A stretch of 64,000 bases of DNA. Origin: Actinomycetota bacterium (GTDB lineage: Bacteria > Actinomycetota > Actinomycetes > Propionibacteriales > Propionibacteriaceae). The DNA lies in NCBI GenBank assembly GCA_020161755.1, contig JAIUOS010000002.1, positions 62,001 through 126,000 on the forward strand. The letters run 5' to 3'. Position numbers and translations under genes: made by a program. Each line of letters starts with the position of its first letter. The first letter of the stretch is position 1. Positions 30,853 through 35,933 of this stretch are shown one piece after another. The notes beneath the pieces were generated by a model. That model did no database searches. It was not told where the DNA came from and saw only the letters and a program-made list of their open reading frames with translations.

Positions 30853-31335
30853 GTGCGGCGCGGCGTCCGCCTCGCCCTCGACTGGGGACGGGCACGGATC
30901 GGGGTGGCCGCGAGCGACCCCGACGGCATCCTGGCCCACCCGGTCGAGACCGTTCCCGCGGGCGACGCCGCGGTCGGTCGCGTCCAGCAACTGGTGGCCG
31001 AGTACGAGCCGCTCGAGGTCGTGCTCGGCCTGCCGCGCAACCTCGCCGGCGTCGAGGGGCCGGCGGCGGATGCGATGCGCGAGGTCGCCGGACACCTCGC
31101 GGCGGCGCTGCCCGGTGTGCCGATCCGGCTCGTCGATGAGAGACTGACCACCGTCACCGCGTCCCGGCAGCTCCAGGGGGCGGGACGCAACACCAGGCGC
31201 CAGCGCCGTGTCATCGACCAGGCGGCCGCCGTGGCACTCTTGGAGCAGGCCTTGCAGCACGAACGGACAACCGGCCGGGCACCGGGGGAGTTGGTCCCCA
31301 CGCCCGACCCAGGAAGGACTCCAGCGGATGAGTAG
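30853..31335 (+). CDS. ruvX: YqgF/RuvX family RNase H-like nuclease
   Basis: The 160-residue protein is a RuvC-like nuclease implicated in pre-16S rRNA 5' processing. Acidic sites are in LALDWGRARIGVA, EVVLGLPRNL and LVDERLTTVTA, with a final DQAAAVALLEQAL. GTG 30853 begins just after the alaS stop, and the gene overlaps mltG by eight bases. Alternative roles as a junction resolvase are debated for the family. Confidence 0.93.
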   Translation: MRRGVRLALDWGRARIGVAASDPDGILAHPVETVPAGDAAVGRVQQLVAEYEPLEVVLGLPRNLAGVEGPAADAMREVAGHLAAALPGVPIRLVDERLTTVTASRQLQGAGRNTRRQRRVIDQAAAVALLEQALQHERTTGRAPGELVPTPDPGRTPADE

Positions 31336-32491
31336 CCGATTCCCCGGGGAGATCAGGGACCCCGAGACCGGGAAGCTCGACCTCAAGGAGGTCTGGTACA
31401 AGGTGCGCTCGGCGTTCGCCGTGCTGCTGTCGCTGGCGGTGTTCGTCGGCGGCGGCTGGTTCGTCTACAACAAGGCCCACGACTCCTGGATGGACTACCG
31501 CACCGCCGAGGACTACATCGGCGAGGGCGTCGCACCGGTCGAGGTGACGATCCCGTCCGGGTCGACCACCACCCAGATCGCGAACATCCTGCTCCAGGCC
31601 GACGTCGTGAAGACTGCCAAGGCGTTCACCCGCGAAGCGGCGTCCAACCCCGACTCGGCGGGCATCCAGGCCGGCCGCTACAACCTGCGCACCCAGCTGC
31701 CGGCCAAGACCGCCCTGGCGATGCTGCTGAACCCGAAGAACCAGATCCACAACCGGATGACCCTGCGCGACGGCCTGCGGATGAGCGAGGCCGTGACCGC
31801 GATGGCGAAGGCCACGAAGCTGCCGAAGAAGGACTTCCAGAAGTTGCTGAAGAACTGGAAGAAGCTCGGCCTGCCGACCTGGGCCAAGCGCGGGGCGGAA
31901 GGCTTCCTGTTCCCGGACACCTACGAACTCGCTGACAAGCCGACGGCCAAGTCGGTGCTGAAGTCGATCACCACCAACTTCACCAACGTCACCAACGACA
32001 TCCAGTTCGTGGACGGCGCCAACGCGCTCGGCTACACGCCCTACCAGGTGCTGGTGATGGCGAGCATCATCCAGCGCGAGGCCGGTCCGAACCCCGACGA
32101 CCTGCCGAAGATCGCCCGGGTGTTCTACAACCGACTCGACCCGAAGCTGTGGCCCGGTAACCAGCTGCAGTCGGACGCGACCGTCGCCTACGCCAACAAC
32201 ATCACCGGCCGCGTGTACACGACCGACGCCGAGCGCGCGCTGAAGTCGCCGTACAACACGTACTACATCAAGGGCCTGCCGGTCGGACCGATCACCTCGC
32301 CGTCGAAGAAGGCGATGGAGGCGGCGCTGCACCCGGCCGACGGCAACTGGACGTTCTTCACGGTCGTCAACCTCGACACCGGCGAGACGGCGTTCGCCGA
32401 CAACATCAACGACCAGAACGCGAATGCGGCCAAGCTCCAGGCGTGGTGCCAGGAGTCGCAGGCCAACCGCGACAAGTGCAACGGGAAGTAG
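31328..32491 (+). CDS. mltG: Endolytic murein transglycosylase
   Basis: The 387-residue YceG-family enzyme cuts nascent glycan strands at the outer face of the membrane. A cytoplasmic stub is followed by one membrane helix (about 28-47), a LysM-like region, and the catalytic domain with the glutamate in [10 protein letters not shown] and the conserved ARVFYNRL and [10 protein letters not shown]. The reading frame is open upstream, but ATG 31328 within the end of ruvX gives the family N-terminus. aroE, which often follows mltG in actinobacteria, is absent. Confidence 0.94.
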
Positions 32492-32495
32492 CCGG

Positions 32496-33683
32496 ATGCT
32501 GCGCTACCTGACCGCTGGGGAGTCCCACGGCCGCGCCCTGGTGGCCACGATCGAGGGTATCCCGGCCCACGTCGCGCTGACCTCCACCGAGGTCTCGGAC
32601 GCGCTGGCGCGCCGCCGGCTGGGCACCGGGCGGGGCGCCCGGATGAAGTTCGAGGCCGACGAGGTGACGATGCTGGCCGGCGTCCGCCACGGGGAGACCC
32701 TCGGGTCGCCGATCGCGATCATGGTCGGCAACTCGGAGTGGCCGAAGTGGGAGACGGTGATGGCGCCCGACCCGGTGCCCGCCGAGGAGCTGGAGGCGCA
32801 GGCCCGCAACGCGGCCCTGACCCGTCCGCGGCCCGGCCACGCCGACCTGTCCGGCATGCAGAAGTACGACTGGGACGAGGCCCGGCCGATCCTGGAACGC
32901 GCCTCCGCCCGGGAGACCGCCGCCCGGGTGGCGCTCGGCCAGGTCGCGAAGAACTTCCTCGAACAGGCCTTCGGCATCCGGGTGTTCAGCCACGTCGTGC
33001 GGATCGGCGCGGCCGAGAGCACCGCGACGCTGCTGCCGGCGCCCGAGGACCTGCCCGCGATCGACGCCTCGCCCGTCCGCTGCTTCGACGCCACGGCCGC
33101 GGAGGCGATGCTGACCGAGATCGACGCGGCGAAGTCCGAGGGCGACACCCTCGGCGGCGTGGTCGAGGTGCTGGCCTACGCCCTGCCGCCCGGGCTCGGT
33201 TCGCACAGCCAGGGCGATCGCCGCCTGGACGCGCGCCTGGCCGGCGCGCTGATGGGCATCCAGGCGATCAAGGGCGTCGAGGTCGGCGACGGGTTCGCCC
33301 TCGCCGCCACCCGCGGCAGCCTCGCCCACGACGAGATGCTGCCCGGCGACGGCGGCGTCCACCGCCTCTCCAACCGCTCCGGCGGCACCGAGGGCGGCAT
33401 GAGCAACGGCGAGGTGCTGCGCGTCCGGGCCGCGATGAAGCCGATCGCGACCGTCCCGCGGGCCCTGCGCACCGTGGACGTCACCACCGGCGAGGCCGCT
33501 CAGGCCCACCACCAGCGCTCGGACGTCTGCGCGGTGCCGGCCGCCGGCGTGGTCGCCGAGGCGATGGTCGCCCTCGTCCTCGCCGAGCTGGCACTGGAGA
33601 AGTTCGGCGGCGACTCGCTGGCCGAGACCCGGCGCAACCATGCCGGCTACCTGGCCCGGCTGGCCGAGCGGAACCTGGGTTGA
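32496..33683 (+). CDS. aroC: Chorismate synthase
   Basis: The 395-residue enzyme makes chorismate from EPSP using reduced FMN. Signatures are [15 protein letters not shown] at the start, [28 protein letters not shown], and the [13 protein letters not shown] block. It begins 4 nt after the mltG stop and overlaps aroK. As in other bacteria it is monofunctional and needs a separate flavin reductase. Confidence 0.98.
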
Positions 33684-34183
33684 GCCGTCCCGACCTCGTG
33701 CTGGTCGGCATCCCCGGCTCCGGGAAGTCCACCGTCGCCGCCCTGCTGGCCGCGCAGCGCCACCTGCCGCTGGTCGACGTCGACGACATGGTCGAGGACG
33801 CCCTCGGCGCCCCCGCCGAGGAGGTCTTCGCCACCGGCGAGGCCCACTACCGCGAGGTCGAGGAGGGGGTCAGCCTGGCTGCCCTGCAGCTGCCCGGCGT
33901 GGTCGCCCTGGGCAGCGGGGCGGTCGATTCCCGGGCGGTCCGGGAGGCACTCGCCGGCATCGACGTGGTGTGGCTGCGCACCTCGGTGACGGTCGCGACG
34001 AGGCGCTTGGGCATGAACAGCCTCGGAATGGCTGCACTGGTCGCCATCCGGGATCGGATGGATCGTATGCTCGCCGAACGGGCACCCTGTTACGCGGCGG
34101 TGGCCACCTTCGTGGTGGACACCGACCGGCTGACCGCCGAGCAGGTGGCTGCCGACATCTCCGGACGAGGAGCGGGACGATGA
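33680..34183 (+). CDS. aroK: Shikimate kinase with an atypical lid
   Basis: The 167-residue kinase phosphorylates shikimate. The Walker A loop GIPGSGKST (10-18), VDVDD (32-36), Arg58 in AHYREVE and Arg134 in AERAPCY match shikimate kinases. The LID normally carries an Arg-Pro pair (VRPLL in the tuberculosis enzyme, with catalytic Arg117), but here reads [10 protein letters not shown] at 113-122, so both residues are missing. The GGG loop is GSG. TTG 33680, overlapping the aroC stop, is the only start that keeps the first strand. Context supports the pathway role; activity is uncertain. Confidence 0.9.
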
Positions 34184-35265
34184 CCTGGGTGCCGATCGAC
34201 GTGGCGACCGAACAGCCCTACCAGGTGCTGATCGGGGCGGGCGTCTCGAGCCTGCTGCCGCAGTTCCTCGACGGGGTCGAACGCGTCGCCGTGATCCACC
34301 CGCCGGGCCTGGCGTCCCTGCTGCCCGCGATCACCACCGGCCTCGACCAGCAGGTGACCGCGATCCGCGTGCCCGAGGCCGAGGCGGGCAAGACCGCCGA
34401 GGTGCTGGAAGGCTGCTGGGAGGCCCTCGCCGGCGCCGGCTTCACCCGCTCGGACGCGATCCTCGGCCTGGGCGGGGGAGCGACCACCGATCTCGCCGGG
34501 TTCGTCGCCGCCACCTGGCTGCGCGGCGTCCGGTACGTCGCCCTGCCCACCTCGCTGCTGGCGATGGTGGACGCGGCCGTCGGCGGCAAGACCGGCATCA
34601 ACCTGTCGGCCGGCAAGAACCTGGTCGGCGCGTTCCACGAGCCGTTCACCGTGCTCGGCGACCTCGACTTCCTGGCGACCCTGCCGCCGAGCGAGCTGCG
34701 CTCTGGCATGGCGGAGGTGCTGAAGTGCGGCTTCATCGCCGACCCCAGCATCCTCGACGACTTCCAGGCCGACCCGGTGCAGGCGCTCGAGCCGACCAGC
34801 GAGCTGCAGGCGACCCTGATCCGGCGGGCGGTCGCGGTGAAGGCCGCCGTGGTCGCGGCCGACCTGCGCGAGCGCACGTCCGCGGGCTCCGACATCGGCC
34901 GGGAGGCGCTGAACTACGGTCACACGCTCGGCCACGCGATCGAGCGGCAGGAGCACTTCTCGTGGCGCCACGGCCAGGCGGTGTCGGTCGGCATGGTGTT
35001 CGCGGCCGAGGTGGCCCGCCGGCTCGGCCTGGTGGACGACGACCTGGTGGCCCGGCACCGTCGGGTGCTCGAACTGGCCGGCCTGCCGATCCGCTACCCG
35101 GAGGGCACCTGGCTCACCCTGCGCGACACGATGAGCCTGGACAAGAAGTCGCGCGGCTCGAGCCTGCGGTTCGTGCTGCTGAACGGCCTGGCCGCGCCGA
35201 CGATCGTGGCCGACCCGCCCGAAGGTGTGCTCGCCGACGCGTTCCTCGGGCTGAACGCGCTCTGA
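34180..35265 (+). CDS. aroB: 3-dehydroquinate synthase
   Basis: The 361-residue NAD+- and zinc-dependent enzyme converts DAHP to 3-dehydroquinate. NAD-binding GGGATTDLAGFVAATWLRG, VDAAVGGKTGINLSAGKN, the active-site EVLKCGFIAD, and zinc ligands in NYGHTLGHAIE and WRHGQAVSVGM are all present. It overlaps aroK by four bases and shares its stop with the next gene's start. aroQ, the usual next step in this locus, is not here. Confidence 0.97.
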   Translation: MTWVPIDVATEQPYQVLIGAGVSSLLPQFLDGVERVAVIHPPGLASLLPAITTGLDQQVTAIRVPEAEAGKTAEVLEGCWEALAGAGFTRSDAILGLGGGATTDLAGFVAATWLRGVRYVALPTSLLAMVDAAVGGKTGINLSAGKNLVGAFHEPFTVLGDLDFLATLPPSELRSGMAEVLKCGFIADPSILDDFQADPVQALEPTSELQATLIRRAVAVKAAVVAADLRERTSAGSDIGREALNYGHTLGHAIERQEHFSWRHGQAVSVGMVFAAEVARRLGLVDDDLVARHRRVLELAGLPIRYPEGTWLTLRDTMSLDKKSRGSSLRFVLLNGLAAPTIVADPPEGVLADAFLGLNAL

Positions 35266-35933
35266 TGTACATCCCGGCCCACTTCGCGATGACGCCGGAC
35301 CAGATCGGGGTGGTGCTGGCGTCCGGGGCGGCCGGCGACCTGGTCACGCACACTGCGGACGGGTTGGTGGCCACCTTCGTCCCGATGCTCTTCGACGGCG
35401 ACGGCGGCCCGCTCGGCAGCCTGGTCGGCCACCTGTCGCTGGTCAACGACCAGTGGCGGCCCGCAGCCGAGGGCCCGACGCCGGCACTGTTCATCCTCCA
35501 CGGGCCCGGTGACTACGTGCAGGCCGAGTGGCTGAGCACCCCCGGCTCGCCGAACGTGCCCACCTGGAACTACGTCACCGTGCACGCCTGGGGCGACCTC
35601 GTGGCCCACCGCGACCCCGCCTGGGTGCGGGACGCCGTCCGTCGGCTCAGCGCCGCGCACGGCGACGCGTCCATCGACGACCTGCCCGCCGGCGAGGTCG
35701 ACACCCTGCTGCGGGCCATCGTCGGCGTCGAACTGCGCATCACCAGGCTGGACGGCAAGGCCAAGATGAGCCAGAACAAGCGGCCCCAGGTCGTCGGCCA
35801 GGTCATCGACGGCCTCCGCACCGCCGGGGGAGACGACACCGCCGACTGGATGGCCGAGCACTCCCTTCCCCGCGCCCAGGCGAAGGCCGACCTCCTCGCC
35901 GGCCTGCGCGCGTCCCGCACCCCCGATTCGTGA
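35265..35933 (+). CDS. PaiB-type FMN-binding protein
   Basis: The 222-residue product matches the FMN-binding split-barrel PaiB family (N-terminus MYIPAHFAM, GHLSLVNDQWR, VPTWNYVTVHAWGDL, ELRITRLDGKAKMSQNK). B. subtilis PaiB is called a negative regulator of degradative enzymes and sporulation, but many homologues are probably flavin-dependent enzymes. It is translationally coupled to aroB (TGATG). A link to chorismate synthase's need for reduced flavin is tempting but only an inference. Confidence 0.9.
   Translation: MYIPAHFAMTPDQIGVVLASGAAGDLVTHTADGLVATFVPMLFDGDGGPLGSLVGHLSLVNDQWRPAAEGPTPALFILHGPGDYVQAEWLSTPGSPNVPTWNYVTVHAWGDLVAHRDPAWVRDAVRRLSAAHGDASIDDLPAGEVDTLLRAIVGVELRITRLDGKAKMSQNKRPQVVGQVIDGLRTAGGDDTADWMAEHSLPRAQAKADLLAGLRASRTPDS

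Follow-up and report, generated by a model that had tools for sequence, protein, structure and literature searches.

A lidless shikimate kinase homologue in the aroC-aroB operon of the Propionicimonas group and its probable displacement by a second, intact enzyme

The closest described counterpart of the protein considered here is shikimate kinase (SK) itself (AroK, PF01202; M. tuberculosis SK 1zyu/2iyq), in which a Gly-Gly-Gly triplet contacts shikimate according to the available part of one report (PMC7144000). The lid of the enzyme contains an Arg-Pro pair within the motif RPLL. In the accessible portions of two mutagenesis studies, neither activity nor binding of shikimate could be detected for the R116A and R116K variants of HpSK (PMC3306394), and Arg and Lys mutants of MtSK, with Arg117 among the sites, dropped in activity by more than 100-fold (PMC3537612). 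The excerpts available for three other systems describe plant SKL1 and SKL2 as SK duplicates without SK activity (PMC2593004), the C-terminal SK-like domain of BzdR as an SK fold that lacks SK activity and senses a ligand (PMC3602430), and DvMF_0971 of Desulfovibrio as a homoserine kinase related to SK (PMC5764234). Among the matches listed in the open-access literature, we recognised no bacterial pseudo-shikimate kinase or displaced aroK.

The gene described here, which we call copy A, lies in a 64,000-nucleotide stretch of DNA (the window) from genome G000 of the Propionicimonas group. It is set within the following features:

31208..32491, + strand: gene upstream of aroC (synteny), which we take to be mltG
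32496..33683, + strand: aroC, chorismate synthase (PF01264, 381 bits)
33680..34183, + strand: copy A, lidless SK-like gene and native operon aroK (open reading frame and PF01202)
33707..33730, + strand: Walker A GIPGSGKS, codons 10-17, intact (sequence)
33911..33919, + strand: G78-S79-G80, replacing the GGG shikimate-contact triplet (sequence and alignment)
34016..34045, + strand: lid segment N113-A122 (sequence and alignment)
34025-34030, + strand: G116-M117 in place of the lid Arg-Pro (alignment)
34180..35265, + strand: aroB, 3-dehydroquinate synthase (PF01761 and PF24621)
35265..35933, + strand: FMN_bind_2 domain gene downstream of aroB (domain match)

The product of copy A, 167 residues read from a TTG start codon, scores 92.9-93.3 bits against the Pfam SKI model (PF01202; cut-off 22.1), which places it in that domain family. 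Four bases are shared with each neighbour, at the aroC stop and aroK start (TTGA) and at the aroK stop and aroB start (ATGA). A preliminary description of this DNA had stated that the lid Arg-Pro is missing from residues 113-122 and that Walker A, Arg58 and Arg134 are still present, and both statements are correct. Specifically, the window protein retains Lys16 of Walker A, Asp35, Arg58, Arg109 and Arg134, so that the GxxGxGK[ST] signature and the DxD Asp of a shikimate kinase are in place and the Arg-Pro of RPLL is not. A gap-free alignment of the lid (copy A RRAGLNQLRPLLLGDVR vs the ordinary SK L061, from a sister genus) indicates that Gly116 and Met117 stand where Arg-Pro belongs. The conversion of GGG to GSG, by which the shikimate-contact triplet is also lost, is a further change that the earlier description did not contain.

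Among 30 Propionicimonas-group genomes, copy A lies between aroC and aroB in 19 (one cut by a contig end) and is frameshifted in one (G028); in another eight it is absent, and aroB follows aroC with 9-38 bases between the matches. Two genomes gave no aroC match and hence were not scored. When the orthologues were aligned, as the preliminary description had advised, Gly was found at the lid Arg position in all 19, which excludes chance or sequencing error; the wider-family alignment slid by one and has Met, Leu or Ile in the lid Arg column, with Arg-Pro missing in both alignments. The triplet is broken in every one of the 19, its middle Gly being Ser in 18. Equivalents of Asp34, Arg110 and Arg136 are present in all 19 sequences, the P-loop Lys in 18 and Arg58 in 12 (lost in seven), and 24 columns, the start included, do not vary across 18 copies. 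The copy A of G026 (L049) has Thr for the Walker A Lys in a frame that is otherwise open. In a tree of aroC, aroB and mltG, seven of the eight genomes without copy A form one clade, sister to the remaining genomes, and G022 represents a separate loss; one branch is thus without the native aroK, and the other has kept its lidless form.

The preliminary description had also proposed that another kinase does the job and that a second aroK be sought in the genome. A PF01202 search of G000 gave two matches, copy A and an intact second gene, copy B (G000:C40:5139-5594, 126.9 bits), which carries Walker A, GGG and SRPML. Copy B lies in an aroE-aroK-aroQ locus, in which it overlaps with aroE and precedes aroQ; a class-II DAHP synthase gene is nearby, and the single aroE domain of G000 is located in this locus. 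Copy B occurs in 27 of the 30 genomes, lid Arg-Pro and GGG being present in 27/27 and the P-loop Lys in 26/27, where the remaining one is a cut sequence; the three genomes without a copy B match above 100 bits are 59-74% complete. The proposal that another kinase does the job therefore gains sequence support from an intact second SK in 27/30 genomes. An assembly artefact or contamination is an unlikely source of the two copies, given 17 genomes with both, of which G014 is a single contig.

It had further been suggested that Arg124 or Arg126 might compensate for the missing lid Arg, and the comparison lends this no support. Arg124 aligns with the Arg of the canonical NVR of L061, and the position is Arg in 12/12 order-level and 40/54 family SKs; by these alignments it is the ancestral, conserved Arg of an ordinary lid and no new compensation. 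Residue 126 is variable inside the copy A clade. From a structural perspective, the AlphaFold2 model of copy A has the SK fold, its best solved match being M. tuberculosis SK 1zyu (Z 25.2, rmsd 1.7, 160 residues), and reaches a pLDDT of 92.9 vs 92.7 for an intact Microlunatus SK predicted with the same 25 sequences as input. A single helix runs from residue 117 to 141 in the copy A model; in the model of the intact enzyme the matching helix begins six residues further on and most of the lid is coil, of lower confidence. The difference between the two predictions points to the replacement of a mobile lid by a fixed helix in copy A. The predicted overall fold would suit a protein that is still a shikimate kinase, in which another Arg or a partner replaces the lid Arg, but we find this scarcely credible when the invariant Arg of the lid region (124) is ancestral, the GGG is broken too and the lid-Arg mutants, Lys included, had undetectable activity in the accessible portion of PMC3306394. 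Because the lid Arg is essential or important in the published mutants, copy A is unlikely to be an SK.

Copy A is under purifying selection. A codon model applied to 15 of the 17 genomes with both copies (leaving out G001, where B is partial, and G015, whose B sequence was not included) gave an omega of 0.230 for copy A, 0.165 for copy B, 0.152 for aroE, 0.099 for aroB and 0.079 for aroC; with kappa free, the omega of copy A was 0.232, at an lnL of -5765 vs -6031 when omega was set to 1 and kappa fixed at 2. Pairwise values for copy A in six pairs ranged from 0.11 (L038/L039) to 0.47 (L040/L041, vs 0.13 for aroC), with 0.39 for the window/L044 pair (vs 0.18 for aroC). Outside the genus, omega was 0.20 for the lidless operon pair G168/G169, similar to the intact pair G164/G165 (0.22), and 0.42 for G167/G166. 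Classification of copy A as a pseudogene fails on its open frame and its omega of 0.23; one relative, in G028, is frameshifted. The looser pairs (0.39-0.47 in the genus, 0.42 for G167/G166) would accommodate a slow decay of copy A.

Such decay would be expected if copy A were a functionless relic on its way out, whose frame survives by coupling the translation of aroC and aroB. The four-base overlaps at both ends fit that account, as do the looser pairs, the frameshift in G028 and the eight genomes in which the aroC and aroB matches lie 9-38 bases apart without copy A. Coupling alone, however, does not conserve residues, and omega is 0.23 over deep divergence with 24 invariant columns in 18 copies; the A-less genomes also show a spacer to be unneeded. 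We consider the relic account quite improbable.

A survey of the family led us to reject the idea that lid loss is an oddity of one clade, the genus. Among 160 family genomes searched outside the genus, 156 gave a match, and the reading covered 171 SK-like loci. The lid Arg-Pro is present in 140/140 single-copy SKs, of which 134 lie directly after aroC. Four loci fall outside the 140: L209 and L321, which were mis-extracted and proved to have an intact lid when reread; L247, which has internal stops, comes from a genome that is 60% complete and has a lid that can be read in a different frame; and L287 of G119, which has an insertion and an intact lid. L332 and L333 (G125, G126) were excluded because they match weakly and do not resemble SKs. 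The insertion in L287, a single-copy SK, precedes the glycine motif. Two SKs were found in 12 genomes (three in G167), a count from which second SKs can be missing because some genomes are incomplete. The operon copy lacks Arg-Pro, wholly or partly, in six of the 12 (G083, G092, G167, G168, G169 and G180), where G167-G169 are fragmented MAGs and the lid alignment of G167 is ambiguous. That of G153 retains Arg-Pro but none of the P-loop Lys, the middle Gly and the two Leu of RPLL, that of G171 is frameshifted, and the remaining four (G077, G081, G084, G097) have Arg-Pro, P-loop and GGG. Every catalytic residue tested is present in the 13 non-operon copies of these genomes. The Gly-to-Ser change at the same glycine as in copy A is found in the operon copies of G083, G153 and G167.

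In the sequences read, lid loss is thus recurrent where a second SK exists (6/12 two-SK vs 0/140 single-SK genomes; Fisher p 6e-8, or 8e-11 for any damage, both ignoring kinship). Its restriction, outside the genus, to genomes with a second SK weighs further against copy A still being a shikimate kinase. Since the damaged operon copies mostly stand beside intact SKs of their own genera in a FastTree analysis, the losses outside the genus look largely independent. Across six damaged lineages (G168 and G169 taken as one, G171 excluded) there were 21 changes at 26 columns chosen as invariant in single-copy SKs, of which 16 fell in the four RPLL columns vs 3.2 expected; 0/200,000 draws were as extreme, under the untrue assumption that columns are equally mutable. 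The eight other catalytic residues received 4 hits in 48 slots.

The arrangement of neighbouring genes helps to identify the native copy. In four genomes from other genera (L059-L062) the order is mltG-aroE-aroC-aroK-aroB, with one intact SK each. The order in the genus is mltG-aroC-(copy A)-aroB; aroE was located next to copy B, and a search for aroE between mltG and aroC at this locus in genus genomes found none. A FastTree of 233 SK sequences, built on one short protein and weakly supported at many nodes, recovers copy A as monophyletic (support 0.998) with operon SKs from genera g7 and g34 as its neighbours (support 0.856), and places copy B in a separate clade. Synteny and tree together show that the native aroK of the aroC-aroK-aroB operon is copy A, inherited vertically. 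The second SKs of G153 and G167-G169 (L228-L231, L233) nest inside the Propionicimonas copy B clade, which suggests transfer out of Propionicimonas. The other copies from G180 and six g15 genomes, plus the sole SK of G178, group with the operon SKs of the g29 genomes G181 and G188 (support 0.985). As in Propionicimonas, no aroE was found between mltG and aroC in L207 (G180) or L237 (G171), both of which have a damaged operon SK. Six non-operon SKs of other genera (L224, L228, L231, L236, L238 and L239) have frames of 525-587 residues with an aroB match just downstream and are probably AroKB fusions; no aroB match was found at L235.

We propose that the native aroK was probably displaced by copy B, lost its lid and was kept as a protein for a role without shikimate phosphorylation. 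Copy B, acquired or duplicated and present through the genus, most likely took over as the shikimate kinase, and the native copy A has lost both the lid Arg-Pro and the glycine triplet. Judging from published mutants of other SKs, these losses should abolish shikimate binding and phosphoryl transfer. Selection still acts on copy A, whose predicted fold, P-loop Lys, Asp35, Arg109 and Arg134 are retained, and the most likely role would be to assist AroC and AroB, whose genes flank and overlap its own, as a structural or regulatory partner, or else to bind a ligand. It is most likely, as far as its sequence can tell, that copy A is without SK activity and is retained for another role: conservation without the expected activity calls for a role independent of SK catalysis, and we rank a role within the aroC-K-B operon, structural or regulatory, as the likeliest, with a new substrate next. 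Counting against displacement are the frameshift in G028, the P-loop Lys loss in G026, the loss of Arg58 in 7/19, the higher omega of A than of B, and the operon copies that are intact in four of 12 two-SK genomes outside the genus. In the 8/30 genus genomes that lack copy A, its role would be dispensable.

The retained ATP-site residues would fit a kinase with another substrate equally well. Copy A could be a working kinase in which the lid and GGG-to-GSG changes reshape the acceptor site and ATP binding is kept, and we regard this as unlikely but worth weighing. It would agree with the P-loop Lys in 18/19 copies and the Asp34, Arg110 and Arg136 equivalents in 19/19, with purifying selection, and with the same Gly-to-Ser change in G083, G153 and G167; DvMF_0971 offers a precedent (PMC5764234, in the part available). 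Set against it are the variation of Arg58 (12/19 kept) and the copy of G026 without a P-loop Lys. The best NCBIfam score of copy A is to the homoserine kinase model NF040667, yet at 68.6 bits it is far under the cut-off of 197. No thrB over the cut-off was found in the 30 genus genomes (50/107 family genomes have one), but the gap is filled: hom is followed by thrH, a bifunctional phosphoserine phosphatase/homoserine phosphotransferase, in the four genus genomes tested (G000, G008, G014 and G020; L153, L163, L165, L172), and G020 is without copy A. A homoserine kinase is therefore an unlikely identity. The earlier suggestion of a shifted function keeps the support of purifying selection, but no new substrate emerged, and homoserine, its best lead, is unlikely.

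The displacement that we favour for Propionicimonas may have parallels across the family. A broader proposal, which we offer tentatively and with some doubt, is that a second SK repeatedly makes the operon AroK a lidless pseudo-SK in this family. Catalysis would be removed at the lid, and often at the same glycine, and the fold, P-loop and other ligand residues would stay, because AroK would have a conserved non-catalytic function alongside AroC and AroB in which the other enzyme could not replace it. Vinella et al. are said to have claimed a second activity of E. coli AroK in 1996. The lidless copies would be ready-made separation-of-function variants for seeking a second AroK role, and they provide natural evidence from several lineages that the catalytic value of AroK and any non-catalytic one may be separable. 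Automatic annotation may label such genes shikimate kinase and miss the intact SK elsewhere in the genome.

Compared with AroK, copy A shares the predicted fold, the P-loop, the DxD Asp, the Arg58/Arg110/Arg136 equivalents and the place in the aroC-aroK-aroB operon, and differs in having neither the lid Arg-Pro nor an intact GGG and in sharing its genome with another SK that is intact. According to the portion of the source available (PMC2593004), the lid Arg is gone from the plant duplicate SKL1, as it is from copy A, and purifying selection has preserved most of the ATP-binding residues of SKL1. SKL1 and SKL2 differ in being plant proteins with extra domains; in SKL1, moreover, the proximal Arg of the shikimate site is missing and the lid region evolves neutrally. 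Here, unlike in SKL1 and SKL2, the change affected the copy at the ancestral locus, whose new lid shows partial sequence conservation. The SK-like domain of BzdR is fused to a DNA-binding domain in the part of PMC3602430 available, whereas copy A has no extra domain. DvMF_0971, like copy A, shares its genome with a separate true SK, but as described in the accessible part of PMC5764234 it fills a thrB gap, which thrH after hom occupies in the four genomes tested here.
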